Shown: piece by piece, positions 4,180-44,324 of the stretch
Layout: every line of letters starts with the position of its first letter
Numbering within the stretch: position 1 is the stretch's first letter
NCBI GenBank assembly: GCA_027625915.1
Contig: JANTQA010000026.1
Coordinates: forward strand, 7,564,001-7,628,000
Reading direction: 5' to 3'
Length of the DNA stretch: 64,000 nt
Source of the DNA: Anaeramoeba flamelloides
Taxonomy: Eukaryota > Metamonada > Anaeramoebidae
Program-made: the position numbers and the translations under genes
The notes under the pieces: model-generated
What the model saw: only the letters and a program-made list of their open reading frames with translations
What the model was told of the DNA's origin: nothing
Database searches by the model: none

Positions 4180-7100
4180 ATGCAAATGAAGAACCAAAAT
4201 AATATACTTGGAGACAAAAATCTCAATGTCCAAAAAAAGTTGGATGAATTACAAACAAAATACAAGACAACCCCCGAATTATTAGGTGACCTGTGTAGTC
4301 AAAACGATCCCACAAACCCAGAAAAATTGGAGAAAATCGGAGGCTCAAAAGGCATTGCAAAAACTGTCCAAACAAATTTGCAAAATGGCTTACCTCAAAA
4401 AGATCTCAAAAATAATCTTGACGAGAGAAAATTATACTTTGGAGAAAACAAATTTAAGGAACCCGAATTTAAAGGCTTTTGGGTACTATTCAAAGACACT
4501 TTTGACGATCCTACACTGAAAATTTTGATTGTTTCTGCAATTGTTTCCTTAATCTTGGGCGTCACTGTCGAAGATCCCAAGACAGGCTGGATTGAAGGTA
4601 CCGCAATCCTAATTGCTGTTTTAATTGTGTCCTTTGTTACCGCAATCAATGACTACCAAAAAGAGATGCAATTCAGAGAACTTAACAAAATCAAGGATAA
4701 TATTACATGCACGGTAACGTATTTTGAAAAATATTTCTGCTTTTTCTTTTTTACACTCAAATTGGAAACTTGCTTTTTTTTGAGAGTTGTTTTTTTTTTT
4801 TTTTTTTGAAAAATTTAAGCGAACAAAAGTGTTTGCCATTGAGAAATTCAACTTATTATAAGGATATGGCAAATGTAGAATCACACTGAAAACTTTTGAA
4901 AATGTAGATTAAGAAATTAAAATCTTCATAACTCTGACAAACCCCAAAAGTAATCTTGCCATTTTGAAAAAAGTTTAGAGAAATCAAGAATTTTTGAAAA
5001 GTTTGGACAAATTAACACTTTTTCAAAACAGTTCTCTGTTTAATTGATTTTTCAAACAATATTATTCGTTAGACAATAAATCAAAAAAAAATTTAGTTTC
5101 TTGTTCTGATGAACAAAAAACATTATTACAAAAAGAAATCATTTCAATCACGGTTCTTTCGAAAAAGAATAATTTAGTCCCACTTATTAATATTCAAATT
5201 AAACTTGTGGAATAATTTTTTGAATTATTTATTTACATAAAACTGTTTAATTGAAAAAAAAAAATGTAAAAAACTTGTTGCTCGATTTCCATTTTTCTAA
5301 TTCTTGAGAACTCTTCTTTTGAAACATTTCATTTCAAAGAACCTTTCCAAAGATCAACTAACTTTACAAACCTTTTTTACTTTTAAACCACAAAATGATT
5401 TATTTAAAGCCATGTAAAAATTTTTTAAAAAAGGCGAATCGAAATAAAAAATATATTGAATTTTTCTTTATTTATCAAAAAAGATTAGATTTTTTTTTTT
5501 TCAAATGTTTTTTTTATTTCTTTGAAATCTTTGAGGAAACAAAAATTTTAATTTCTTATCCCCCAAAATTACTCAATTAAAAATTAATTCATTTTCTGAA
5601 AAAATTTATAGGTTATTAGAGAAAAATTAAATGGAAACTCTGAAGCTGAGGGAGAAAAGCTAGCAATCTCGATCCACGATATAGTTGTTGGTGATATAAT
5701 CTATTTACAAACTGGATCGAAAGTACCTGCCGATGGAATTTTATTTTATGCAAGCGAACTTAAAACTAATGAATCTTCTATGACTGGCGAAAACGATGAA
5801 GTAAGGAAAACCCCTGATGAGGACTGTTGGGTGATGTCTGGCACAGAAGTTACCCAAGGAGAAGGTAAATATATTGTCACAGCAGTAGGCAAACATTCCC
5901 AATGGGGAAAAATTATGGAAAAGGCTAAAGGCAAAGAAGATATAAACACACCACTCCAAGACAAACTCGAAGTAATGGCTGACCAAATTGGAAAACTTGG
6001 GTTATATTCCGCAATATTAACTGTTTTGGTTCTTTTAATCAAATGGGGCTTTAAACTTTGTAAACTATTATTTTACTTTTTTGATTTCTTTTCAAAAATC
6101 ATAATTTAATTTTCAAAAATCATTGTTCAATTTATTAATTTCCAAAAAATCTATCAATCTCTCTTTTATTATTATATAACCTAATATCTCTTGATGGTAA
6201 ATAGATGGAAGAATTAATGAAGGACAAAATTTTGAATTCCATGATTTAGTCGAAATAACCGATGCAATTATTATTGGAATTACTATTGTTGTTGTAGCTG
6301 TTCCAGAAGGTTTACCCTTGGCCGTTACCATTTCATTAGCTTATTCTATGAAAAAAATGATGCAAGATAATAATCTTGTCCGTAAATTAGAATCATGTGA
6401 AACCATGGGTAATGTAACAACTATTTGTTCAGACAAAACAGGAACTTTAACAAAAAACGAAATGAATGTCGTTGAAGGGTATTTCTTTGGAAAAAAATAT
6501 GATACCCAACCAAATAAAAAAAATTTAAATCCCACGCATTATCAAATTTTAATAAAAAATATTGCCTTGAATTCAAAAGCCTATTTGCATTACGACGAAT
6601 CAAACCAAAAAAATAAAATCATTGGTTCTCAAACAGAAGGCGCCTTACTCCTTTTACTCAAAGATCAATGGAACGAAGATTTTGAATCAATTCGAAAAAA
6701 ACATGAAAATGAAGATTCCTTTGTCAAATTAATTTCATTTTCTTCCAAAAGAAAAAGAATGTCAACTATAATTAAAGAGGACAATGACAATTATTTAGTT
6801 TTTTGCAATGGTGCCTCTGAAATTATTTTAGATAAATGTTCGCATTATATCAATGATGATCAAGAAACAATTTTAGACACTCAAACACAGGAAGAATTCT
6901 TTAAAGGGATTAATAAAATGGCTTCAAGCGGTTTAAGAACGCTTTGTCTTGCCTACAGAAGAGTAGATTCAAATACATGTGATGAAAAATGGTTGGAAAA
7001 TATTGATGGAATTGAAAAAGATCTTACGCTTTTATCAATTGTCGGAATTAAGGATCCAGTTAGAGAAGAAGTACCTCATGGTAATATATCATAATTTTTA

Positions 7101-14399: not shown

Positions 14400-17300
14400 T
14401 TACCAATTTTGAAATGTTTCTGCAAATAGATCATCCATATTTTTTTTTAACCACGAAATAAGAGTATTATCATTTTTAATAATTTCCTCTTTAGTTATTA
14501 AAGGATGATAAACGGAATATAGTTCATTCCCCTCTGAATTTATACTCGACACGGTTTCATAATTGGTAAAAATTGAGTATTTTTTATTATCTTGTAATAA
14601 TCTTTCTCTCAAAGCCTGGTAAAGTAAACTCAGCCTTTTGGCATTTTTATCAATGTTATAAGGAATTTCTGGTTGTACATAATAACATTGATTCATGGTT
14701 TTATTATTATAAACAAAATGTTTTAAATATGGGATTTTTAATTGGCTTGCAGAAAGTTTTTTTGATTCATTGAATGCCTTTGTCAATTCAGAAATAATTT
14801 CTTCCTTTTCCAAAATCTATTGTTTAAAAGATAAATAATAAAAAAAATCATAATAAATAAATTTGAAATAAATTTAGAATGTAAAGATATGGTGCATTGT
14901 ATTATTGATTTCAATACAGTTTAAATAACAATTCTATAAAAAGGCAATACAACAAATGAAAATTTTATATGAAAATGCCTTTTTTTTTTTTTTTTTTTTT
15001 AATCTTTGTATAACTTTGATCGAATTATACTTTATATTATGTAAATAAATTATGATTTCTACCAAATATTTCTCTTTAAAATATTTTTTTTGAATTGATC
15101 ATTTTTTTATTCTTTTTTTTGTTTATTCTTTGAAAAATAAGATCGAATTATACGTTAAATTATCTCAATAAATTATTTTTATGCCAAATATTTAACTTGC
15201 AAGATTCATTTTTTTGAATTTATCAGTATCAAAAAAATGTAAAAAAAAAAAATAAATAAATACCACTGGGATAAAATTATATAAAAATTAAGTAAATTAC
15301 GATTCATTCTTAGTTATAATAATTTTCACTTGTTTTTTTTTTTTAAAATAACGAACATGGAAAAATAATTATAGTATATAAAATAAAAAAATTTTCCAAT
15401 AATTTTATCCTCGTAATAATTTGAGAAAGATTATCTAAAAATTTTTTTTTTGTTATTTTTTTAATTGTTTACAAATTCAAATAAAAATTAAATCACGAGA
15501 GTATTCAAAAGAGATAATTTTACCCAAGATAAAAGATTTTCTTATTATAAAAAAGTGATTAAAGAGATTTTTTTTTTTTTTAAAAAATACTCTATTCCCG
15601 ACTCTTTGAGTTGCGGCATACCAATTATTAATCGCGGGCTGTGTAAATTTTATTTATTATTAATAATATTTCTATCAGATTTTTGTCCATTAAGTAAATT
15701 CTGGGGAAGAGTGTTGTAGGTTACTGTAGAGTTTCGTCGAGTGCCATTGGGTGACAGGTTTCAAAATAATTGAGTGAAATCAAGATTTTACTCCATTCTT
15801 ATAAACCGGGGAACGGCTACCAACACCTTTTCAGAATTCAAAAGGATGAAGTAAAAAAATCAAAGATTTAACTCGGTTCTATAAAGCTTGGAAATGTTAA
15901 CAGCAAGCTTCTAGGCTTTCTTTTTTATTCTGAAAATCTATCGATTTTTTAAATAAATAAAAAACTCAAAAAAACCAAACCGTGTTTTTTTTTTGGTTTT
16001 TATTAAATTGAAGAAATAAAAAAAAAATTTTAAAAAATTTCTTTTTTTCTTATTTTTGTTTCGAAAATCCATTATTTTTTTTAAAAAAACAGAAAACCCA
16101 AGAAAGGTGAACGACATTCTCCCCGGATTTAAAAGAATTGTCTAAAATCTTTGATTTTACTCTACTCTTTTGAATTCTGGAAAACCTAAATAAAGTGGAT
16201 ATTTTTTAATTTAATCATAAAAATGATATTATTATTATTTTATTATTATTTATCTTAATTATTTTTCTTTTCTCTTTTTTTTTATTTTGATAAATTTTCT
16301 TTGATTACTCCTTTCCCAATAAATAAATAAATTAATAAAAATACTGTTTTTTTTTTTTCATTTTCAAACATGTTGTAATTATTGGAAAATAATTTAAAAC
16401 CTTTTTTTTTATTAAAAAAAAAAAATTCGAATAATGCATTAAAAAGTATGATGACTATCTGCACATAATATAAAAAAACAACAAAATAGAGGTTTTGATG
16501 ATAGCATATATTATCAGGATATTAAGAATAAAATCGCCATAAGTCCAACTTTATCACGAAAAATCATAAAATCGTGATATTCAACATTATTGCGATAAAC
16601 AACATTATCGCGAAAAAATGAAAAATTATTTTTTTGAAATCATCTTAAAAAAAATCTCTTGACTTTTAAAAAACCTTGAGACTTTTATACACTACTCCCC
16701 TTTAAAAATGTTTGAAAGTGTTTGCTTGGGTTGTTACTGTCTTTAAGTGTTTCGAAGTTTTTAAAGATAGAAAACTTTTATAAACGGAATGAGTTTGTTA
16801 GTAGTGGATTAAAAAATTTTTTTCAATTCATTTTTTTTTTTAACAAAAAATAAAATTTCAAACAAATTTTATGATCAAAATAATAATTACCCATTTCAAA
16901 AATGTGCTTGAATATAAAATAGATTCGTCTTCACAAAATGGAGTTGTTACCTTCACAATTTTAAATAACCTAAAAAGAATAAAGAATAATTTTCCTTCGT
17001 ATGGTGATCGATCAAACAAAAACATCTAAGCTCTAGTAGTGTTTTCTGGCCAATGCAAAGACGCTCAAAGAAGAAGAAAAGGAAGAAGAAGAAGACAAAA
17101 ATTGTACAAAAAATCTTAATAATAGGTGATCATCCGGCAAGGATGTTGTGAAAGCTTTTGAAAAGTTATCCAACTCCTTTTAGCTTTCATAGAATATTGA
17201 AAATGTTTTCACCCAAGAACATATTCTTTTAAAGAACAGGTGAAGGGTTGGTTGTTTTAGAAGTTTTTTTTTATTAAACACAATTTATAACACCATGAGT

Positions 17301-26040: not shown

Positions 26041-28792
26041 ATGACAAACAACAACAATACACAAATGGAAATTGAACAACCAACAAATTTATCTGAAAAA
26101 AATCGATCCGTTATCCCAAATCAAATCAAAAAAAACTTGTCTGAATCTCATAATCAATTGAACGAAACAAATTCACAAATAAACGAAACAAAAAACAATA
26201 ATTCTGAAGCAAAAAAAATCAATAAAAAAAATTGTATGGAAAAATGTTCTTTTGCTTTTGATTTTTTTGGATTTGTGAATAAACAAAAAAACAAAAATTA
26301 TTTTTTTTTTCATCCACCCTCCTTTTGAATACTATTTTTTGAAAAACAAAAAAAACTTATCAATTTGTTTGGTTGTTCTCAAAATTTAAATTGTTTCATC
26401 CAATTTTTTTTTTTTTTTCATACAATAATTACTTTAGGTGGAGCTACTTTGATTGTGAAGAAAAAGAAAACTTTAAATCAAAACAATAAAAAAGGAGCTT
26501 CTAAAAATCAAGATCATAAAGATTTTGCGAAAGAAAAGGGCACTCCCAATATTCAAATTAAAATACGCAAGTCAAAAAGAATTCGGAACCGAACAATTCT
26601 TTCCCAATTAGCATTAGAAACTCAAAAAGAAGAAGCTTTAAAAAAGGAAAAAGAAGAGAGCAACAAAAGATCAGTTCGAAAAAAGAAAGAGAAGGAAAAA
26701 GAAAATGATAAAGAAGAGGAAGTTGAAGAATCAACGAAAGAAGAGACCGAAGAAGATTATGGTGAAAAGGAAACAGAAACAGAAACAGAAACGGAAACGG
26801 AAACAGAAGAGGAAGAATTTGAATGGGAAACTTATCAAAAAAAAAAAAAAAATAAGAATTCAAACACTTGTTTGTTGTTTTACTTTCTTTTTTTGAACTC
26901 TTTTTTTCAGGCTCTTACAACAGTTCTTTGAGACTCAATCTCTATTTTGCGAAAATTAAAAAAAACAAACAAAAAACAAACAAATAACATAAATCTAAAA
27001 AAGATAACTCAAAAGCGAGGAGATCCAAAAGAAACACAGAAAGGATTAATTACAATTACGATGCGTCTTCAAATTCTGAAGATTATTATCTTACTGAATC
27101 CTCTAATGAAGGAGAATCAAATTATCTGAACACTAATAATAATGCCGAGGATAACAACGAAACAGCAAATGAGAATGGTATGGTATTAGAAGGCTACGAA
27201 GAAACAAATCCTTATGAACTCGAGAAAGATATTATAAAGCCAGAAGATAAAAAATTAGAAAAAATTTTGACGAGAAGAGAACCAGGAACAACAAAAAAAG
27301 AATTAAGACTTTTAAACTCTCCACAAAAACAAAAAAAAGAAAAAGAAAAGGAAAAAGAAATACAAGAAGAAATTGAAAAAGAAAAAGAAAAAGAAGAGGA
27401 AGAAGAAGAAGAAGAAAAACAAGACAAAATCATAAAAGAAGTTGAATATTTAGTAAAATGGAAAGGCATGTCTTATTTACATGTTGAATGGGTTCCAGAA
27501 TCTGAATTACTGAAACAGCATATGGGAAAATCTAGAATAAAAAAATTTAATGAAAAGATCTTCCCAGAAATGCTTGAGGAAGTAAAATTTGAACCTTTTA
27601 ATTCAAATTTTTTAATTGTTGATCGAATTATAAATAAAATTACAGTTGAAAAAATTGACTATTTGGATGAAGAAAATGAAGAATACGTTTATTGGAAAAT
27701 TATTTCTGATGGTTCAGAAAATGAAAAAAAAGCAAAAGAAATACATCAAGAAAATGAAAATGAAAATGAATTATTGGAAGAAATCAAAATAAAAACTGAA
27801 CAACAAAAAGAAAAAGAAAACGAAAAAGAACAAGAACAAGAACAAGAACAAGAACAAGAAATTGAATTAAAATTAGAAAACAAAAATGAAGATGAAACAG
27901 AACCAGAACCAGTTCAAAAAACTGAAAAAGAAGAAACTGCAAACAAAAGTGAAAATAAATCAATTAATTCAATTAATATCTCATTTGGTGACACTAAAAA
28001 AATTTACCAGAATATTCAAGAAGAAACAAAAATGAATAAGGAAAATGAAAAGCAGCAAGAAGAAGCTGTGATAGAATACTATCAAGAAAGCGAACCTATA
28101 ATTCCAATTAAATTTTATCAAGAGCTAACTGAAGAAAAAGAAAAAACAAAAAACCAAAATTTACCAAAAAGATTAGAATTATATTTGGTAAAATGGAGTT
28201 TTTTACCTTATCAGGATTCTACTTGGGAAACTAAAGAAGACATTAATGATGATCAAAAAATTCAAGAATTTGAAGAAAGAGAAAACTCGATGAACAAAAA
28301 AATACAAGATTTCAAAAAATCGATGAATATGAAAAATTATAAAAAATGGATTAAAAAAACTGAATCGCCAAAATACAAAAATGACAATAAATTAAGAAAC
28401 TACCAAGTGGAGGGATTGAATTGGTTATCTTTTAATTGGACAAAGGGTGTTAATGGGATTTTAGCAGATCAAATGGGCTTGGGTAAATCAATTCAAACAA
28501 TAGCAATTTTGGAATATTTGAAAAACGAAAAAAGTTTGAATGGTCCATTTTTAGTTATTGTACCATTATCCACCTTATCGAATTGGGAAAGAGAATTTAA
28601 AGTTTGGTCTAAATTAAATTGCTTAACTTACCATGGTACCACAAAAGCGAGATCCATTCTTAGACAAAATGAATTCTTTTATAAGGGACAAAGGAGAATT
28701 TTGCCACCTTTTTGGGGGATTGATCCAGATAAGGAAGAAAGCGATTCTCAATCAGACGAAGATGATTTTAACCTTCGTAATAATTTGAAAAA

Positions 28793-28825
<33 letters not shown>

Positions 28826-31800
28826 CAACAGAGATAGCAACAATGATGATCATGATGAGAACAATGAGAATAGTGAAGATTATGATCAAGAAAAAACTAA
28901 AGATCCTTTTGAGGAAGAAGATGAAAAAAAAAAATTAAGAAATAAAATTAATATGAATATTAATGAAAATCTCATAAACAACAACAAGAATACGAATGGT
29001 GATAATATCAATAGTCTCGCTGAGGAAGAAAAAAATAAAATGAATAATTTAAAAATTGAGAATAATCTGTTTAAATTTGATGTAATTTTAACTACTTATG
29101 AAATGGCTGTAGCTGACAAACATTATTTATCCAAAATTGATTGGGAATATACAGTTATTGACGAGGGGCATAAATTAAAGAATTACCAAGCCAAAACTTA
29201 TCAAGAATTGTTTCAATACGTATCTGAACATATTCTATTATTGACCGGTACACCCTTACAGAATAACATTGAGGAACTGTGGGCATTGTTACATTTCCTC
29301 GAGCCAATCAAATATAATGATCGAGAAGGCTTTATTGAAGAATTCGGAGATATGAAGGATTCCACACAGGTAGACAAATTGCATAAAATTTTAAGGCCAC
29401 ACTTGCTAAGAAGATTAAAATCCGATGTGGAAAAATCCATTGCACCTAAGGAGGAAACCATTATTGAAGTTGAATTAACAAAATTCCAAAAGCAATATTA
29501 CCGTGCTGTCTTGAAGAGGAATATCCAATTTTTATCAAAGGGTGTTAAAAGCGGGAAAATACCAAGATTGGTTAATATTGTAATGCAACTAAGGAAAATA
29601 TGCAATCATCCGTATTTGATACAAGGTGCAGAAGATTTTGCTAATGAAGATATTGAAGAGTACAACAAGGAAGAAAAAATGAAAACGTTAGTAATGAATT
29701 CTGGTAAATTTGTATTACTAGATAAATTGTTAACAAAATTGAAAAACCAAGGATCCAAGGTATTAATTTTTTCACAAATGGTCAAGTTATTGGATATCAT
29801 TGAAGAGTATTTACATTATAGAGAATACAATTATGAGAGGATTGATGGATCCATTCGGGGGAATTTAAGGCAATCGTCAATAGATCGATTTATGGATCCC
29901 AAATATGAAAGATTTGTCTTTCTATTATGTACGAGAGCCGGTGGGCTGGGCATTAATTTGACTTCTGCAAACACTGTAATCATTTTTGATTCTGATTGGA
30001 ACCCACAAAACGATATCCAGGCAATGGACCGTTGCCATAGGATTGGCCAAACTAAACTGGTCAAGGTGTATAGATTTATTACACGGAACACCTACGAAAG
30101 GGAAATGTTTGATCGCGCTTCCAAAAAATTAGGCCTCGATCATGCAGTCCTAACAAATATCACTTCCACAGTGAAACCAAAAGCATCATCATCATTAAAG
30201 GCGTCTTCTTCCATGTCCCTGGAGGAATCTTTAACTGTTAGCATCAAGGACAATAAAAAGGATCAATTAAATTCACAAGAAATAAACAATTTGCTAAAAT
30301 ATGGCGCATATGATCTGTTTCATGACAACGGCGATTCTGAAAAATTTTGTGAAGAGGATATTGACCAAATTTTAGAAAGAAGAACGATGAAAGTCACCCA
30401 TGGCACGGTTGATAAAGATAAAGATAAACCTTCAACTTTTTCGAGAGCCACGTTTGTATCGGAAGACGCAGACACTTCTTTAGATGTTAACGATCCAAAT
30501 TTCTGGAAAGAGCTGATCCCAGAGGATCAGAAAAATAGGAATTTTGAAAACGAAAGCCTAATGGGCCAGTCTATCAATTTAAAGGGGCATTCCCATCGAA
30601 GAGTGACAAGGGAATTAAGAAAATCAATCTTGAAAACGATAAATTCAAACAATGAAAACGATGATTATTATGATAAGGGGGTTTTACCAGACATACCGCA
30701 AGAATACAACCCAGAAGACACCGAGTTTGTAATACCAATTGGCAATAGATTCCAAAATTTGGAAATCTGGTACCTAACAGAAAGGGATCGGTTAATTAAA
30801 GACAGCTTATTACTTTTTGGATATGGCGGTAGATGGAAATTGTTAAAGGAAGTGGCAAGCTTAAAAAGATTAAGTATCAAGAAATTGAAAAGATTCACTA
30901 CTTCCATTTTACGGCTATGCCTATCTCGAGTAAGTTCATTGGAGCTTGAAAGCAAATATCCAATTTTATTGATTGATCTATACGAACAAATGAAAACCCA
31001 AATAATCAATTTGGGGGCTGGTAAACAGAATTTACCAGTCACTGATGAATGGAATGAACTCTTTCAAAACGCCCTATTAAAGAAAAAAGAAAAAATTTTA
31101 TTTAATAAAAAGCAAAAAGAAAAAGAGAAAAAATTGAAAAAGGAAAGGAAAAAATCACATTTACGGAGCAGAAAAAGCACAATGCTCGAAAAAAAAAAAT
31201 TAAAAAGAAAACTTGGCGATGATTTGGATTTGCAATTAATACAAGAGGAATTAGATCAAGAGAAAATTGTTCAAAATTTAGAAAAGAGAAAGGAATTAAT
31301 AAAATCACAGCCAAATAAAATTAATATCGATATTTATTCTTTAGATAAAAAAATCAATTTAGCCTTTGATAAGGATAATTTGAAAAAAATTAAGTGGAAA
31401 CATTCCTTTTTCATAAATTCTTCAAAGGCAGAAGTGAATAGGGTTTGTAAATTTGTTTCCTTAGAAACTTCTCGGAATCTTCATGAATTGTTTTACACAG
31501 AAGCGTTATTACAATCACAATTATTACGCCATATCGAAGAAGATTATACTACTTGGCTGGATATTTTTGAACAAATGTCAGTAATTAGAAGAATTTTTAC
31601 AATAGTTTTTACAAAATTGGTAAGCAAAAGGAATAAAAAATTAAAATTTGATATGAAAAATATTAACGAAAATAATAAGGACGGGGGGGATAAGAATGAA
31701 GATAGAAACAAGGATGATGGAAATAAGGATGATGGGAATAAGGATGGCAACGATGATGATGATGATGATGATGATAATGATGATGGAGGCGGTGGTGATG

Positions 31801-34040
31801 ATAATGATGGTGGTGGTGATGATGATGATGGTGATGGTGATAGCAATAAAAAGAACGAAAAAAAAGAACGAAATGGTATAAATTTGATTGATAATAAATA
31901 TATTGATTTAGACGATTTTGATCATGAAAAATTAAGTTCTGAAATAATATTAAAAATAGATTCATTACTTTATTTACCAAAAAAAAATTATAAAACCTAC
32001 CCAACAAAATGGTGGAATGACCATCACGATAGAATGTTTTTATATGGTATATTTAAACATGGCTATAATAATTTTGAAAAAATACGATTGGATCCGATTT
32101 TAGGCTTTGATCATTGTAAAACAAAAGATGAAGCAAAATTATTAAAAAAGCAATTAAAAGAAAATGAAGATCTATTAAATAAAGAAAATAATATGGATAT
32201 TTCAAAAGAAGTTGATGAAAATTCTAATAATAATATTCAATTAACTTTAACCCTTTCAAATTCAAATTCACAACCCCAAATTAAGACTCAAGAAAATAAC
32301 CCAATAAATATCTTGTTAAATAGTAATAGCAATGATCATAATGACGAAAGGGGGAGAGGAGAAGAAAATGAAAAGAAAGAGGATGAGGAAAAGAATGCCA
32401 ATAAAAATAATGGTGATGATGATGATAGTGATGATGATAAAAGGGGAAGGAGTGATGGCGATGGTGATGGCGACGATGAAAAAAGAGAAAAGAAAGGAGA
32501 AGAGGAAGAAATTAAGAAAGAAATTAAAGGTGGAAATGAAAGGGAAGAAAAAGGAAAAAAGGAAAAGGCTGATGAGGAAGAAAAAAAAAGAAAGAAAAAA
32601 GAAAAAAAAGAAAAAAAGAAAAAAAGGAAAAAGGAAAAAGAAGAAAAAGAAAAGAAGAAAATCAGGGCATTCCCATCCGACAGGAAATTAAAAAAGAGAA
32701 TGGTTAATTTAGTAAATGGTTATAAAAAATTATTAAAATACGTATCTTTAAAAGAAAAATTAAAAAAAGAAAGAAAAAAAAGAAAAAAAGAATTAAAAAA
32801 ATTAAAAAAATTAAAAAAGAGAAGAAAAAAAGAAAAAAAATGGAATAAAAAATTTACCACTTCATTATTCCATACATTAATAACTTGGGGAATTCCTTTA
32901 GACGAAAATAAAAGTGAAAATTATCACCGATTTTATGAGTTGTTAGGGAATGTAACAAAAACCGAAGAAGAAATTACCAATTTATTAAAAGAATATTTAT
33001 CTATTTGTTATAACACAATTAATAACCAACAAAAAAATAATATAAATAAAAAAAAAGAAATAATTAATCAAAAAAATGACACCGGGAATAATAATATAAA
33101 TAATAATCATGAAATTAAAAAAGAAAATGAAATATCAATTGCAATAAAAAAAGAAGACAAAAAGGAAAATGAAAATATTAATAAAAATGAAAAGGAAAAG
33201 GAAAAGGAAAAGGAAGCGGGAAGTGAAATGGAAATAGAAAAGGAAAATGAAATTAAAATTGAAATAAAAAGTGAAATAAAATTAGAAAAAGAAAAGGAAA
33301 ATGAAAAGGAAGAAGAAAATGGAAAGGAAAAAGAAAAAGAAAAAGAAAGTGAAAATAAAATGGAAATAGAGAATGCAAATGGAAAAGAAAAGGAAAAGGA
33401 AAAAGAAAAGGAAAGGGAAAAGGAACAATTAATAATTAATTATAAAACTGCTAGAAGAGTAATTGAAAGAATTGAAACAATGAATAAAATTGTTTATGAA
33501 ATTTTACCTTTAGAAAATTTAGTTGAATTAACAAACAAATTAAAAAAATTAAAAAACTGCCCCTCTTGGTGGGAAACCGGAATCCATGATATTGCGTTAT
33601 TAGAAGCGGTGAAAAAACACGGGTTTACCAATATTGAAAGGATGTTAAATGACAACACATTGCCATTTTATCAAGAAAAAAATAAATGGGACCTCCAACA
33701 AAATCAAAATAAAGATCAAAATCAACAAGATCAAAATAATCATCAACAAGAAGATAACAAGCAAAAACTTAAAGAGAAAAATGAGCAACAAGATCAAAAG
33801 CAAAATGAGAAACAAGATTCAAAAAAGAAAAAAAAACAAGATGAATTTGAATTTTTTGGAACTACTCAATTATTTTCAAGAATTAAATCCGTTATTAATG
33901 GAATTGAAAAAATACAAAAAAAAATTGAAAAAGAAAAATCAAAACCTAAAAAAAAATCTAAAAAATTTAAAAATTATAAAATAATAATCGCAAAAACGAG
34001 ACAGGTAATTGTTACTCAAAAACAATTAGATAAAAAATAA
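26041..34040 (+). CDS. CHD-family chromatin remodelling ATPase (subfamily III-like)
   Basis: An SNF2-type, ATP-driven nucleosome remodeller. Model: exons 26041-26233, 26438-26869 and 27004-34040, about 2553 aa. In order: a K/E/S-rich N-terminus; two chromodomains (VEYLVKWKGMSYLHVEW and LELYLVKWSFLPYQDSTW), each embedded in K/E/Q-rich insertions; SNF2 lobe 1 with Walker A DQMGLGKS (about residue 697) and DEGH (about 928), separated by an extra N/D-rich insert of about 110 residues; lobe 2 with RAGGLGINL and DRCHRIGQ (about 1215); a YGGRWKLL block; and two copies of a WW..HD..L....KHG motif (about 1877 and 2395). That repeated motif and the GRW block resemble CHD6-9/Kismet. The first intron is clear (204 bp). 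The second is ambiguous: a strong TTTTTTTCAG acceptor at 26,910 leads to an in-frame TAA at 26,985, whereas AAAAAAG at 27,003 keeps the frame. Confidence 0.9.
28794..28826 (+). repeat. AAT trinucleotide run inside the CHD gene
   Basis: An (AAT)n run encoding asparagines within the extra insert between the Walker A and DEGH motifs of the CHD ATPase. Codon-repeat expansions of this kind are usual in AT-rich protist genes and are likely length-variable. Confidence 0.85.
31749..31840 (+). repeat. GAT/GGT repeat encoding Asp/Gly run in CHD
   Basis: A tract of GAT and GGT/GGC codons giving a strongly acidic D/G run, about 130-180 bases before the first WW..HD motif. Likely a flexible acidic linker and a replication-slippage site. 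Confidence 0.8.
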
Positions 34041-37000: not shown

Positions 37001-37112
37001 AATTTTCAATATTAGAAGATGGTAAAGTTCTAATCAAATCAAAAATCATTTTTTTTAATCTTTATTCTTATTTCCAACTTGAATTAAAATTCAAAAAAAA
37101 GAAAAAATTCAA
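34041..37112. other. Spacer between CHD and POLE, nothing recognised
   Basis: About 3.1 kb of AT-rich sequence. Small frames (35,065-35,274; 36,083-36,274) look like chance. No partner among the repeat families of the window was found. The final part must contain the POLE promoter. Confidence 0.5.
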
Positions 37113-40100
37113 ATGGAAAAAAAGACACTTTTGCAAAAAAAAGAACAAAGAGAAAGGATGAGTAAATTAGAAAAACTCTTTGGCTTTAGAACATATAGTG
37201 ATTACAAAAAACGATTGGGGTGGCTTTTTAATGTAAAGCCATCAACAATCCTCGAAAAGGATGGGAATGAATATGCTTGTCTGGATTTATTTTTTTTTGA
37301 ACAAGTAACGGATATTTTTTTGTGATTTTTTTTTCTATTTTCAAATTTTTATCAAGACTTTTGTATTTTAGTCCACCTATTAACTGAAACCCACTTTCAA
37401 AATAATTCACAAATATACCCTTGGAACAACAATTTTTTTTTTTTCCAAAATAATTTACTATACTTTCTTTTATTCAAAAAACAAAGGAAGGAACAACATT
37501 TAAAGTAAATTATAAATTTGAACCATACATTTTAGTTTCTGTTCTCAAAGATAATTTCCAAGTTGTTGAAAATTTGATTTTAAAAGATAACGAAGGATTA
37601 ATTGCTTCTTCAGAAATTGTGATCAAAGAAGATCTTGATATGGTAAGAGCTCTCTTTTTTACTTTATTGATTTTTTTTTTTTTTATTTGTTTATTCTTTG
37701 ATGAACAAACAATCCAATTCTTCTTACAAAATAATTAAAAAAAAACAATACACCGACACAACTTTACCTTATTCTTTTACCAATGCATTTTTTTTTTTTT
37801 TTTTTCATTTGTCTTTCAATTCCTACCCAATAATGAAACAATAAAATAATCAAAACATAAAAAACCAAAACAAAAAAACCAAAACAAAATAACCAAAACA
37901 AAAGAAAAACCATTTATCGAATCTGAAAAAAAAATATTTAAAATTAAACTTCACAAACATTGAAAATTTATTAAGTGTTCGAAAGAAAATCATGAAGCAA
38001 TTAAGGGTCAACCAAACAACAAGGATCAACCGAAGAGGATATGAATTACTCGAGGACATTCGTGAATACGACATTCCATATTACCAGAGGGTAATGATCG
38101 ACAGTGGGATTCGATGTGGGTGTTGGTATTCTGTCTCTGTCAAGAATGGGCACCTAGACTTGGTACCCGAGACATCTAAGGTGCAACGGCCAGATCTAAG
38201 GATCTTGGCGTATGATATTGAGACCACCAAACGGCCTCTACGGTTTCCAGATTCCAATGAGGATCAAATAATGATGATTTCCTATATGGTAGATGGCGAT
38301 GGTTATTTAATTGTGAATCGGAAAATCGTGAGTGAGGACATCCAAGATTTTGAGTATACGCCCAAGAAGGAGTTTGTTGGTAATTTCCACATTTTCAATG
38401 AAAAAAACGAAAAGGCCACTCTTCTGCGCTTTTACCAGCACATCCAAGAAATAAAGCCCAACATCATTGTTACCTTTAATGGCGACGCCTTTGATTTCCC
38501 ATTTGTTGACTCACGGTCTCGAATCTTGGGGCTGAGTCTGTATAGATCGACAGGCTATTACCAAAGCAAGAATGACGATTACCTCTGTAAGTTTGCCTTG
38601 CATTTGGATGCTTATAAATGGGTCAAAAGGGATTCCTATTTGCCCATGGGTTCGCAGGGTTTAAAGGCTGTCACGAGAATCAAATTGGGGTATGATCCTT
38701 TAGAGTTGGATCCCGAGGACATGACGCTGTTTGCGACTGAAAGGCCACAGGAGCTGGCTAGCTATTCGGTTTCTGATGCCGTGGCAACCTATTACCTGTA
38801 CATGAAATATGTGCACCCGTTTGTCTTTTCGCTTTGTACCATCGTCCCGATGAGCCCCGATGATGTTCTTCGGAAGGGTACTGGTACCCTGTGTGAATCC
38901 CTCTTGATGGTCAAGGCCTTTGAAGAAAAGATCATCTTCCCCAACAAGAAGAAAGAAAAAAAGATCCAGTTTCACAAAAATAATTTATTGCAGAGCGAAA
39001 CCTACATTGGCGGCCATGTTGAGGCACTAAGATCGGGGATCTATCGTGCTGATTTGGAAAATCAATTTGAATTGGATCCAACGGCCTTTGAGGAATTAAT
39101 CGAGCAACTTGACGAGATGCTCAAATATGAATTACTTTTTAAAAAAAAGCTCAAAATGGAGAACGTTACCAATTACCAAGAAATTAAGGATCAAGTCATG
39201 AAAAAGTTAGCCAATTTAAGGGACAAGCCAAATCGAAAAGAAAAGCCCATCATTTATCATCTGGATGTTGCGGCAATGTACCCCAACATCATTCTAACAA
39301 ACAGGCTGCAGCCGCCTTCAATCGTCGACGAAAGCATCTGCGCAAGCTGCCTCTACAACTCCAAGGAGAGCAACTGTAAAAGGGTGCTGCCCTGGATCTG
39401 GAGGGGCGACTTGAGCATGTCCAACAGATCGGAGTTCCAACAGATCTATTCGCAATTGGAGGAAGAGGAATTTGATCAAAAGGTGCAACTGAAAAATAAA
39501 ACGACCTTCGAGAGGCAAACAAAGATCAAAAAAGTGCCCTTTTATAATTTAAAAGAAGACGAAAAAAGCGTCTATTTGCTGAAGAGACTGAATTCCTACA
39601 CAAGAAGGATCTATGGGAAAACACATAAGATCATCACCGAAAACCGAAACAACACGGTGTGCCAGAGAGAAAACCCCTTTTATTATAACACTGTGCGATC
39701 CTTTCGAGATCGAAGGTACTACTATAAAAACCTATTAAAGGAATGGAGCATCAAGAAGGAACAGCTCTTGGAAAAAGAGCAGATCGATCCGCTAGAGGTT
39801 GACGAATCAGAGAAAATGAGGATCATGTACGACTCCCTGCAGTTGGCACATAAGTGTATCTTGAATTCCTTTTATGGGTATGTCATGAGAAAAGGATCAA
39901 GATGGTTTTCAATGGAAATGGCCGGGATCGTCACGTTAAACGGCGCAAATATCATTACCCAATCCCGGGAAACCATTGAAAGAATAGGTATACCCTTGGA
40001 ATTGGATACTGATGGTATTTGGTGTGTTTTGCCAAGCGTTTTCCCCGAGGATTTGGTCTTTCAAGTTAAGACGGGCAATGGTAACAAAATTAAAAAAAGT

Positions 40101-43100
40101 CAAGATCTCTTACCCATGCCTAATTTTAAATTACAATGTCTTCAAAAACTTTTCAAACCCTCAGTTCCAGATGTTTAATAACAACAAAAACGACTATGAC
40201 ATTCAAACTGAAAACACCATCGAATTTGAAGTTGATGGGCCCTATTATGCAATGATCTTGCCGGCCTCGACAAAGGAAAACGAATCGATTAAAAAGCGAT
40301 ATGCAGTTTTCAATTTTGATCGCAAAATCGCAGAATTGAAAGGATTTGAGATCAAAAGAAGAGGGGAGCTAAAAATGGTCAAAATATTGCAATCGCACCT
40401 ATTTGATGCCTTTTTAAAGGGTAGCAACATACAGGAATGCTATCGGGAAGTCGCCAAAGTCAGTTTACACTACTTGGACATCCTCTACTCCAAGGGCGTC
40501 CAAATGCCCGATTGGGAGCTTATTGAATACATCGGAGAAACTCGAAACATGTCAAAGCCTCTTTTTCGAATACGGGGATCAAAAATCAACTGTGATCACC
40601 ACTGCACGAAGGCTCTCAGAATTCAGTGGCAAGGAATATAAAACGAAGGGTGGGATAGCTTGCTCCTTTATTATTTCGAACAAGCCCCTTGGCGCGTCAG
40701 TCACTGAGCGCGCAATCCCCTTAAAGATCTTCCAAACACAAGAAAATGTCAAAAAAGAGATTCATCAAGAAATGGTCCAAAAACAGCCAAATGCAAGACT
40801 TTACCCTCAGGAGCATCATTGATTGGGATTATTATTTGAAAAGGATTGGAACCATGCTACAAAAAATTGTTACCATCCCGGCTGCCTTGCAGGGCATCGA
40901 GAACCCATTGCCATGCGTAAAGCATCCGGATTGGTTAATTAAAAAAAATCAAAATCATGAAGGAAAAGGGCAAACAAAAAAAAAAATTACCAATTATTTT
41001 CAAGTCAAAAAAAGGTAGCAACAATTTAATCGATATCGAAGATATAATAATAAACAAAAACCATGATCAGAAAAACAATAAAAAATTTGAAAAATAAGCA
41101 ACCCAAGATCACTCAAATGTTTGTCTCTAAGGCAAGCAAAAGGAAAGCCAAGAACCAAAAAAAAAAAAACCGAATTGAAAAAGCAAAAGTATCAAGAATT
41201 AAAAATTGAAGAATTAATTGATAAATTACCAGAAATCAATGATAAATTACCAAGCGAAAAACGGAGATTTAACAAATGGCTAAATTGGCAAAAAACGAAA
41301 TGGAAATTATTGGTCAAAAGCAACAAAAGATTCACAATGCTTGACAATAAGGAGGATATGAAATATAAAATGAATGTGTCTGAAGAAGAATTGTTTGACT
41401 TGAATAGAAACAGGTTGAATAAAAATAATGAAGAACATGAAGATAATTATTTGATTAATATCAAAAGCCAATTATTAAAATTCAATTGGCATATTTTGAG
41501 TATCCAAAAAAATTATAAAAAACCCGATCTATTTACTATTTGGTTAATAATAAATAATAGCATCACTTCAATCAATTTAAGAGTGAAAAGAAAATTTTAT
41601 ATCAATTCAAAGACTAAATTAAATTACGGCAAAAAACTCGAATACAATTGCCATTTACCGAGAAAGCAGCCTCCTTCAAATTTATATTCAATTGAACTTT
41701 CTGAAAAGAAATATCAAAAAACATTAAACGATTTAAAAAAAAAATTTGTCCAACCTAACGTCACTGGCGTCTTTGAAAGACAAATACCCTTAGATTTACA
41801 AATTATCTTATCGTTGGGCAACGTATGTAAATTAACAAAGGATTATTTAAAAAACAATAAGGACACCAATTTACTAAATAACTATGATGATGATGACGAC
41901 GACGATGAAACAGAAAAGGAATATGAACTAGACGATTTAGAAACCATTGACACACAAGCAAAAAATCAAAAAACTTTTAACAAATATAAAGAATTGGTCT
42001 TAAAACAAAACGAAATATTTATTTATCAAAATTTTATTGACAAATTTGGAACTTTTTCAATTTATATCCCTAAAAAACGAACAAGTTATATTATTATTTT
42101 TTGTTTAGGCACCCAACCAGAATTGCCATCATTTCAAAAAATATGGAAAGACATTCAGGATAATGGTCATGTCAATACCAATACCAATATCAATGATTCA
42201 AATGTGTCATTTAAAAAAACCTTTGAAAAGACGTTAGCTAAGGCGAAAAGTAAATTTAATAAAATACTCAGCCAAGTCTTGGAGTCAAGTGGAAATTTGC
42301 ACAAAATTATTACCATTTCAAGCAAATTGGAAAGCAAGCAATTATATAAAGATCACCCAATCTTATTAAATCACCCAATCATAAGGTTACCATATAATAA
42401 TAACGACTCGAATTGCTTTAAAAACATCAATTGGCAAAAGCAAATGGCAGAAATATTATTAAATAGATTATCACAATTCTCAAATTGGTATATCAATTCA
42501 ATTGAATTAGCACAGTATTCCGGTATCCCACTGGGGAATTTTGAAACTGATAAATTGAATTTCGTCAGTGATGTAATGTTTAGTCGACGACTAAGATTAC
42601 AAAACCATTTATTATGGATCTCGAATAATGCTAACAAGCCAGATCTAGGCGGTATCGAAGAAGATGAAAATCTATTTTTTAATAATTTGGATGAAAAGAA
42701 TAGTCTATCCAAATCAATTATCAACCCGGGAATATACACCAATGTCTGTATAGAACTGGAAATGCATTACTTGCCAATAGTTTCAATTGTGTCAAACGAA
42801 TTCAATTTAAATGATTATTCGAATACAAATTACAGTAACGAAAAAACGTTTGTGAACAACAATAATAAAACCTTTAATAATATTATCCAATCCAATTTCT
42901 ATGCCGAGAAGAATTCCTGTTCAAAGGCCATGGAAACCTTGAGGGTATTAGCCATACAGTGGATGAAGGATTGCCACAAAAAGCAATATAAATTTGTTGA
43001 TTCAATTTTAATAAACTTTTTAAAATGGATTAACGACACCAATTCCAAATTATTCGATCCCATATTACAATCCTTTATCATGGAATTGATCAACAATTCT

Positions 43101-44324
43101 TTCAAATCATTGGTGAACGAATTGGAAGAGAAATATTCTGCCAAAATCGTTTTTGCTAATTTAAATAAAATCATTTTGGTGACGCCTAGATCAAAAGTAA
43201 GTGATTCTTTAACCTATATGTCAACCGTGCTTCAAGGAATACGAAAATCCAACAATATTAGTTTTAGATATTTAGATCTCCAGCCAGTAAATCTTTGGTC
43301 AACATTAATCTTTTTAGATGAATGGAACTTTTCGGGATTATTGGTGCCACAGACAACTGACAATTTCCAAGTTCAAGAAAATGGGAATGGGAAGCAAAAC
43401 GGTGAAGAAGAAGAGGAAGAAGAGGAAGATTTAATGTTTGAGCAAAACTGGTCAAATGATGTTAATGAATTTAAGGTAATTTCAACTTGGAATATTGCAG
43501 AATTTTTACCCAACGATTTACATCGGAAATATTATCATTTTACAGAGCTCTTTTTAAACGAATTATTAAAATTTAAAAAGCAATCAGAAAATGATATGAT
43601 GATCGAAAATATGAACGACAGCCAATCCAAAAAAACAAAAACCAATAAAGATGGCTATCACCAGGGCTTTGATGGTACCGATCCAGAAACTGTTTCTTTT
43701 ATTCAACACATTTTAAAAAACGTTTTTGCTAACCAATTATTCCAAACAATTTCACAATTTAGCCGATCAAACAAAATAAATAATGATGACATAATTAATT
43801 TTATTATTTATGTCTGCCAGGTATTTAGCTTTAATAAAAAAATTAAGCCAATAATTGAAAATATTAAAAAAAACTTGCTAAAATTGGTGAAAATAAGCTC
43901 CTTTTCACAAAAAGTGCAATACCAAAATCCCTGCACCTCAATCGTTTTAAACAATTATACTTGTAACTTCTGTAATTCATCCAAAGACCTTGATATTTCA
44001 AGAGACATCAACATCCTCTCGGGAAATTGGATGTGTACATCATGCAGCCAGCCTTACAACTTGATTAAAATTGAATCAAAATTAATACAAAAGGTAAACA
44101 AACAACTGTTGAGCTACCAATTACAAGATTTGAAATGTGAAAAATGTGGGTTGTTAAGAAGAGGGCTTTTGGAACATAGCTGCCAGGATTCTGGCAAATA
44201 TATTAATAAAATTAATAAAGATAATTTTATTAAAGAATTAAATGTTTTATTAAAAATTTCCCAAAAACATAATTTTGAAAGATTAGAAGAATTAATTTCT
44301 TCAATTTTACCTTCAGAAAATTAA
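37113..44324 (+). CDS. POLE: DNA polymerase epsilon catalytic subunit
   Basis: Leading-strand replicative polymerase with 3'-5' exonuclease. Exons are 37113-37304, 37487-37642 and 37905-44324, both introns GT-AG in phase 0; about 2253 aa once six one-base insertions are discounted (human 2286, yeast 2222). Visible: Exo I DIETT (about residue 220), Exo [12 protein letters not shown], Exo [16 protein letters not shown], Pol [11 protein letters not shown], Pol [12 protein letters not shown], Pol C DTDGIW (about 814). The four cysteines of the catalytic-core Fe-S site are present (CASC, NCKR, VCQREN). The inactive C-terminal polymerase half and CysA (CNFC...CTSC) are present; CysB has C..C, C, then Asp where the fourth Cys is expected. 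The frame shifts at homopolymers at about 40,092, 40,562, 40,751, 41,007, 41,090 and 41,157, each by one extra base, returning to the original frame after the sixth. Codon GC content is higher in the catalytic half than in neighbouring genes. Confidence 0.95.
37840..37904 (+). repeat. CCAAAACAAA-type short tandem repeat at POLE intron 2 end
   Basis: The last about 60 bases of the 262-bp second POLE intron are an imperfect array of AACCAAAACAAA units running right up to the AAAG acceptor at 37,904. This replaces the poly-T tract seen before most other acceptors here. Confidence 0.7.

Follow-up and report, generated by a model that had tools for sequence, protein, structure and literature searches.

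Clustered one-base frame changes in a DNA polymerase epsilon gene of Anaeramoeba flamelloides: probable homopolymer over-calling in an assembly patch

A forward-strand gene at about 37.1–44.3 kb of a 64,000-nucleotide stretch of the Anaeramoeba flamelloides assembly (contig JANTQA010000026.1, positions 7,564,001 to 7,628,000; the whole stretch is referred to as the window) is, judging from its sequence, POLE, the gene for the catalytic subunit of DNA polymerase epsilon (the main DNA polymerase of the leading strand), and its reading frame changes several times near the middle. Three of these changes are firm. They share one direction, they are clustered, and the conserved residues between them are intact. 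We consider it probable (about 0.8), from this pattern and from precedent, that the changes represent over-called homopolymers in a poorly corrected patch of the assembly and not new biology. The segment at about 40.07–41.17 kb would be an assembly patch with several homopolymer runs each lengthened by one base in error, and the underlying POLE gene would most likely be intact, in one frame after splicing. Long-read consensus and polishing may have over-estimated the run lengths, and later correction may then have failed over about 1.1 kb, where coverage could have been low or ambiguous. Both the sequencing platform and the absence of the surplus bases from the organism's own DNA are inferred. 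If this explanation holds, the finding is no more than a caution: predicted models of this POLE gene may come out split or truncated, and claims of a "split" or "missing" POLE in this organism need checking.

Identity of the gene

The gene was found from stop-to-stop frames and comparison with solved structures, and was compared with human POLE by phmmer and with Pfam profiles. Among the solved structures, POLE was the best match for its family-B exonuclease and polymerase domains (PF03104, PF00136). Query residues 52–732 of the frame at 37,893–40,178 align with human POLE (E = 2.2e-254, the last residues weakly), and the frame at 41,091–44,324 matches the C-terminal half of human POLE with E = 2.1e-91 (match frame 41,091–44,321). 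The POLE-specific thumb (PF22634, spread over three frames), the DUF1744 half and two zinc fingers are also present (PF08490, PF23250, PF22912). The thumb profile is covered in pieces, at its positions 1–76, 66–142 and 128–178, in three successive frames. Upstream of the long frames, short exons separated by two T-rich introns (about 37,306–37,484 and 37,643–37,905, boundaries by eye) appear to complete the N-terminus; we take these exons to resemble POLE. The gene frames stay open with the standard genetic code, and no other code is needed. The parts of the gene and the frame changes are listed in Table 1.

Table 1. Segments of the POLE gene and positions of the frame changes, numbered from the first letter of the window
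Feature	Positions	Strand	Evidence
5' part of POLE, short first exons and two T-rich introns	37083..37905	+	by eye
POLE exonuclease and polymerase domains, frame 0, intact	37906..40091	+	phmmer 2.2e-254; PF03104, PF00136
Frame change 1 (0 to 1), A7 run	40092..40098	+	change somewhere in about 40,068–40,098
POLE palm/thumb segment, frame 1	40093..40563	+	6.2e-50 to human POLE; PF22634 1–76
Frame change 2 (1 to 2), T5 run	40562..40566	+	change placed at 40,564–40,567
POLE thumb segment, frame 2	40565..40750	+	8.5e-17 to human POLE; PF22634 66–142
Frame change 3 (2 to 0), A6 run	40751..40756	+	change placed at 40,751–40,757
End of POLE catalytic half, frame 0 to at least about 40,935	40752..41012	+	1e-26 to human POLE (match end weak); PF22634 128–178
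Probable frame change 4 (0 to 1)	40941..41013	+	codon statistics; weak homology favours A7
Possible frame change 5 (1 to 2), A5 run	41090..41094	+	codon statistics only
Possible frame change 6 (2 to 0), 13-A run	41157..41169	+	codon statistics only
POLE C-terminal half (DUF1744, two zinc fingers), frame 0, intact	41160..44324	+	2.1e-91; PF08490, PF23250, PF22912

Frame changes in the middle of the gene

A preliminary description of this region had reported six single-base shifts of the same sign, all in homopolymers, with strong support from conserved residues for the first three. The changes are truly present in the sequence as given, and homology to human and yeast POLE confirms sites 1–3. 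Precision differs among them. For site 1, alignment in the upstream frame ends at query residue 732 and resumes in the next frame at KVKISYP, and the change is located no more closely than to about 30 nt. The frame-1 piece, starting from 40,093, corresponds to positions 861–1017 of human chain 9ne9_A (6.2e-50), the frame-0 match having ended at 859. Length is not conserved at this point and the change amounts to one base modulo three; the A7 run is its likely place, and other places within the interval are possible. Sites 2 and 3 are exact to the residue, each with one surplus base. At site 2 four bases stand for one residue at 40,564–40,567 (candidate bases TTTC), and the frame-2 piece carries on with EYGDQKST (8.5e-17 to human POLE). 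At site 3 seven bases stand for two residues at 40,751–40,757 (candidate bases AAAAAAG), after which the frame-0 piece matches human POLE 1080–1163 (1e-26). Over-calling predicts a surplus base in a run with continuous residues on both sides, and this is found exactly at sites 2 and 3 and is likely at site 1. The location in homopolymers is accordingly close to demonstrated for two sites and likely for the first, while for sites 4–6 it was assumed. All resolved changes have the same sign.

Conservation is maintained across the shifted pieces. Measured against human POLE, the upstream frame scores 1.23 bits per residue (836.8 bits over 681 residues), the frame-1 piece 1.10 (171.9/156) and the next frame-0 piece 1.12 (94.9/85); the frame-2 piece scores 0.69 (63.0/91), with about 22 of its 91 aligned residues out of frame. 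Because the values in the shifted pieces are close to the upstream value, there is no clear loss of conservation, and the earlier argument that intact conserved residues speak against an old pseudogene holds.

The changes are also confined to one part of the gene. A homology-free Viterbi frame scan of the whole window finds forward-strand frame changes only in POLE, at 40.17–41.10 kb; the forward-strand genes free of frame changes in the scan include a helicase-like frame of 2,350 codons and five ATPase exons. The preliminary description is borne out for the POLE flanks, which make up the remaining 5.3 kb of the coding sequence and in which neither the alignments nor the scan show a net shift. 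The scan also calls minus-strand coding sequence with frame changes at 38.1–39.5 kb, antisense to POLE, and coding sequence antisense to the ATPase gene, and both signals are taken as shadows. When the six originally named runs are counted, 6 of the 19 runs of at least five bases within 40,092–41,169 are hit, compared with 0 of 50 in the flanks (p = 0.0002 by Fisher's exact test); with the three firm sites alone the same comparison gives p = 0.018, and both values are optimistic as the edges of the cluster were set by the shifts themselves. Random placement brings six shifts within 1,078 nt in 0.06% of trials and three shifts within 665 nt in 3.0%, likewise optimistic figures with edges chosen from the data.

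Beyond about 40,935 homology gives little help on the frame, and for the remaining sites we relied mainly on codon statistics, which make change 4 probable and changes 5 and 6 possible. Unless an intron is present, a change from frame 0 to 1 is needed before 41,016, because a frame-0 stop occurs there. The candidate runs are A8 (40,941–40,948), A11 (40,976–40,986) and A7 (41,007–41,013), and the change may lie in or between them. It had been assigned to the A7 run, and the weak end of the human POLE match, which keeps frame 0 up to 41,006, favours that run. Codon likelihood, on the other hand, is best at 40,962 when trained on all training genes or at 40,950 when trained on POLE only, with A7 worse by 2.9 or 2.2 nats. 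The two indications point to different places and do not single out one carrier run. For sites 5 and 6, paths through 40,989–41,199 were scored with no charge for the number of shifts. With all training genes the three-shift path scores −244.0 nats, a two-change path −248.6 and an intron of 84 nt −252.8; with POLE-only training the scores are −246.4, −252.5 and −254.6 nats. Codon statistics prefer frame 2 followed by frame 0, and the penalised Viterbi scan merges changes 5 and 6 into a single change from frame 1 to 0. The last run, previously given as A12, contains 13 A (41,157–41,169).

The catalytic half ends with two peptides about 33 residues apart, one at 40,971–41,000 (frame 0) and the other QPKITQMF at 41,099–41,122 (frame 2), both of which are PCNA-box-like. 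If both are read, this POLE would carry a tandem pair.

Interpretation of the frame changes

Over-calling has a precedent in the long-read assembly of Drechmeria coniospora, where run-length errors shift the frame of conserved genes and are biased towards insertions after polishing (PMC7500977). Polishing of nanopore assemblies is described there as giving more insertions than deletions, with homopolymer length more often over-predicted; the tools given in a figure legend are Racon x4 and Medaka. The platform and reads were known in that case, whereas the POLE patch consists of consensus sequence alone and its errors form one tight cluster. Polishing with short reads often fails to remove errors in places where these reads cannot be aligned reliably (PMC8812927). 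Anaeramoeba flamelloides assemblies are described as made with Flye, Racon x4, Medaka and Pilon, and the Anaeramoeba genomes as A+T rich (PMC11550330); the connection of this procedure to the present patch is only a lead.

Several observations weigh against over-calling. Longer runs in POLE are correct, although it is usually these that suffer most from calling errors. The runs assigned to the changes are only weakly longer than the other runs in the cluster (p = 0.08 by the Mann–Whitney test), and there is no known reason for a patch at this place. Another study of long-read assemblies ties deletions most strongly to homopolymers and has insertions following A or T, with no particular homopolymer involved, and being commoner at run lengths of two and five (PMC12007338).

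The preliminary description had named over-calling, a recently damaged copy and slippage as causes without choosing among them; of these, over-calling is the best supported, a damaged copy is less likely and slippage is disfavoured. An intron offers a different explanation for part of the cluster. Sites 4–6 could be a single intron of 84 nt (GT at 41,015 to AG at 41,098) that keeps frame 0, leaving only sites 1–3 anomalous, and this is compatible with assembly error at sites 1–3. The stretch has GT..AG ends, a length divisible by three and no conserved residues inside, and POLE has other introns. We nevertheless regard the intron as unlikely: with shifts uncharged, it scores worse than three +1 moves by 8.8 nats when all training genes are used and by 8.2 nats with POLE alone. 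The introns of the window judged by eye are T-rich, whereas this stretch is rich in A and short, and its frame 1 stays open for 26 codons. Moreover, the frame-2 piece holds the PCNA-box-like QPKITQMF. Tiny introns were rejected as a common cause of changes 1–3, as they would remove aligned residues at sites 2 and 3; site 1 alone could be read by eye as a 19-nt GT..AG piece. Somewhat less likely than the 84-nt intron is a genuine copy or allele of POLE that lost its function only very recently and has an intact counterpart at another genomic locus. Frame changes beside intact conserved residues are as expected of a very young dead copy, and A. flamelloides is described as having expanded gene families, enriched in DNA metabolism among other functions (PMC11550330). 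Against such a copy stand the several same-sign one-base changes within 1.1 kb, the remaining 5.3 kb being free of net shifts, and the lack of clear conservation loss in the shifted pieces. One-base additions confined to one kilobase, with the rest of the gene unshifted, are unlike neutral decay. An old pseudogene is rejected on account of the conservation kept in the shifted pieces; in place of indels of mixed sign and lost conserved residues we find one sign at the resolved sites and similar bits per residue. Searches for a relative of this POLE in viral and prokaryotic collections gave 37 pattern matches among viral contigs and 160 among genome contigs, none of which was confirmed.

If the bases are real, full-length POLE could still be made by a ribosomal +1 shift or by RNA polymerase slippage at each site, which we consider very improbable. 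Slightly less probable again is that this protist tolerates several +1 shifts by efficient ribosomal re-pairing at contexts such as AAA_AGN, TTT_CGA and AAA_TAA, that is, non-triplet decoding outside ciliates. Real bases would add an essential gene to the known cases in which frameshifting is tolerated. In favour of recoding, frame and residues are preserved on both sides of the shifts, and some contexts are similar to known +1 sites. Site 1 reads AAA_AGT, and AGT and AGG are found in the yeast Ty sites. In the old frame, site 4 (with the A7 placement) reads AAA_AGG_TAG and site 5 AAA_TAA, each with a stop within or beside the context. At site 2 the context TTT_CGA is similar to UCC_UUU_CGU, the PA-X shift site of influenza (PMC3498833). 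Similar contexts are, however, read normally elsewhere. In a control of 5,991 codons from intact frames, which takes in the POLE flanks and two terminal stop codons but leaves out the RRM frame of 234 codons because its 5' part looked intronic by eye, AAA_AGT occurs unshifted 7 times, AAA_AGG 5, AAA_GAG 7, TTT_CGA once and AAA_AAA 87 times. The sole TTT_CGA lies within POLE itself, as TCC_TTT_CGA at 39,699–39,707, and is read in frame as VRSFRDRR. Among longer contexts AAA_AAA_AGG occurs once, and AAA_AAA_AGT, CTT_TTT_CGA and AAA_AAA_GAG are absent, the control being silent for these three of the four. A base inserted into a run that precedes G or C also creates AGN and CGN contexts by itself. 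No common motif is visible by eye among the sites, and three to six shifts per message would each need high efficiency. An effect of slippage should grow with run length, but T5 and A6 are shifted whereas runs of A9 (37,926–37,934), A8 (39,141–39,148), A10 (41,735–41,744) and A8 (43,866–43,873) stay in frame in the ungapped human POLE alignment. Slippage is disfavoured because these longer runs stay in frame and because similar contexts are read normally. Transcriptional slippage in bacteria, endosymbionts and potyviruses shares with POLE the A or T runs at or near the shifts, but the bacterial cases described have runs of about nine (PMC5009743). Slippage at a short run does occur in potyviruses, at about 2% on GAAAAAA (PMC5009743); in POLE T5 and A6 are shifted and A9, A8 and A10 elsewhere are not. 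Euplotes likewise offers forward shifts that restore a conserved protein, and stop codons specify the frameshifting there (PMC10235951). Euplotes shifts occur at internal stops, whereas the firm POLE sites 1–3 end 78, 73 and 64 nt before the next old-frame stop; the less firmly supported sites are closer to one, 3 nt upstream of it for site 4 (placed at A7) and 1 nt upstream for site 5.

Base composition and other features of the window

The G+C content of the window is 24.75%; this richness in A+T, the introns and proteins with much Lys, Glu and Asn are reminiscent of Anaeramoeba. Third-position G+C, measured in POLE in pieces of up to 100 codons, is 0.44–0.60 in the catalytic half (37,911–41,012) and 0.13–0.40 in the C-terminal half (41,160–44,321). 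The step, near 41.0 kb, coincides with the end of the shift cluster. The middle part of the helicase-like gene also has raised third-position G+C (up to 0.41) compared with the rest of that gene, and among the three genes measured the first half of POLE has the highest values.

Pfam matches in other frames comprise a P-type cation ATPase, a MON1/FUZ/HPS1 longin-domain protein, an RRM protein and an Ndc80-like protein, and the large frame at 26,988–34,040 resembles a CHD helicase. Rfam at gathering scores and ARAGORN gave no match in the window. The P-type ATPase gene has an intron of about 900 nt at 4,714–5,611 (by eye), longer than the other introns viewed, and a 138-residue open frame at 14,400–14,816 on the minus strand is called coding by the frame scan.

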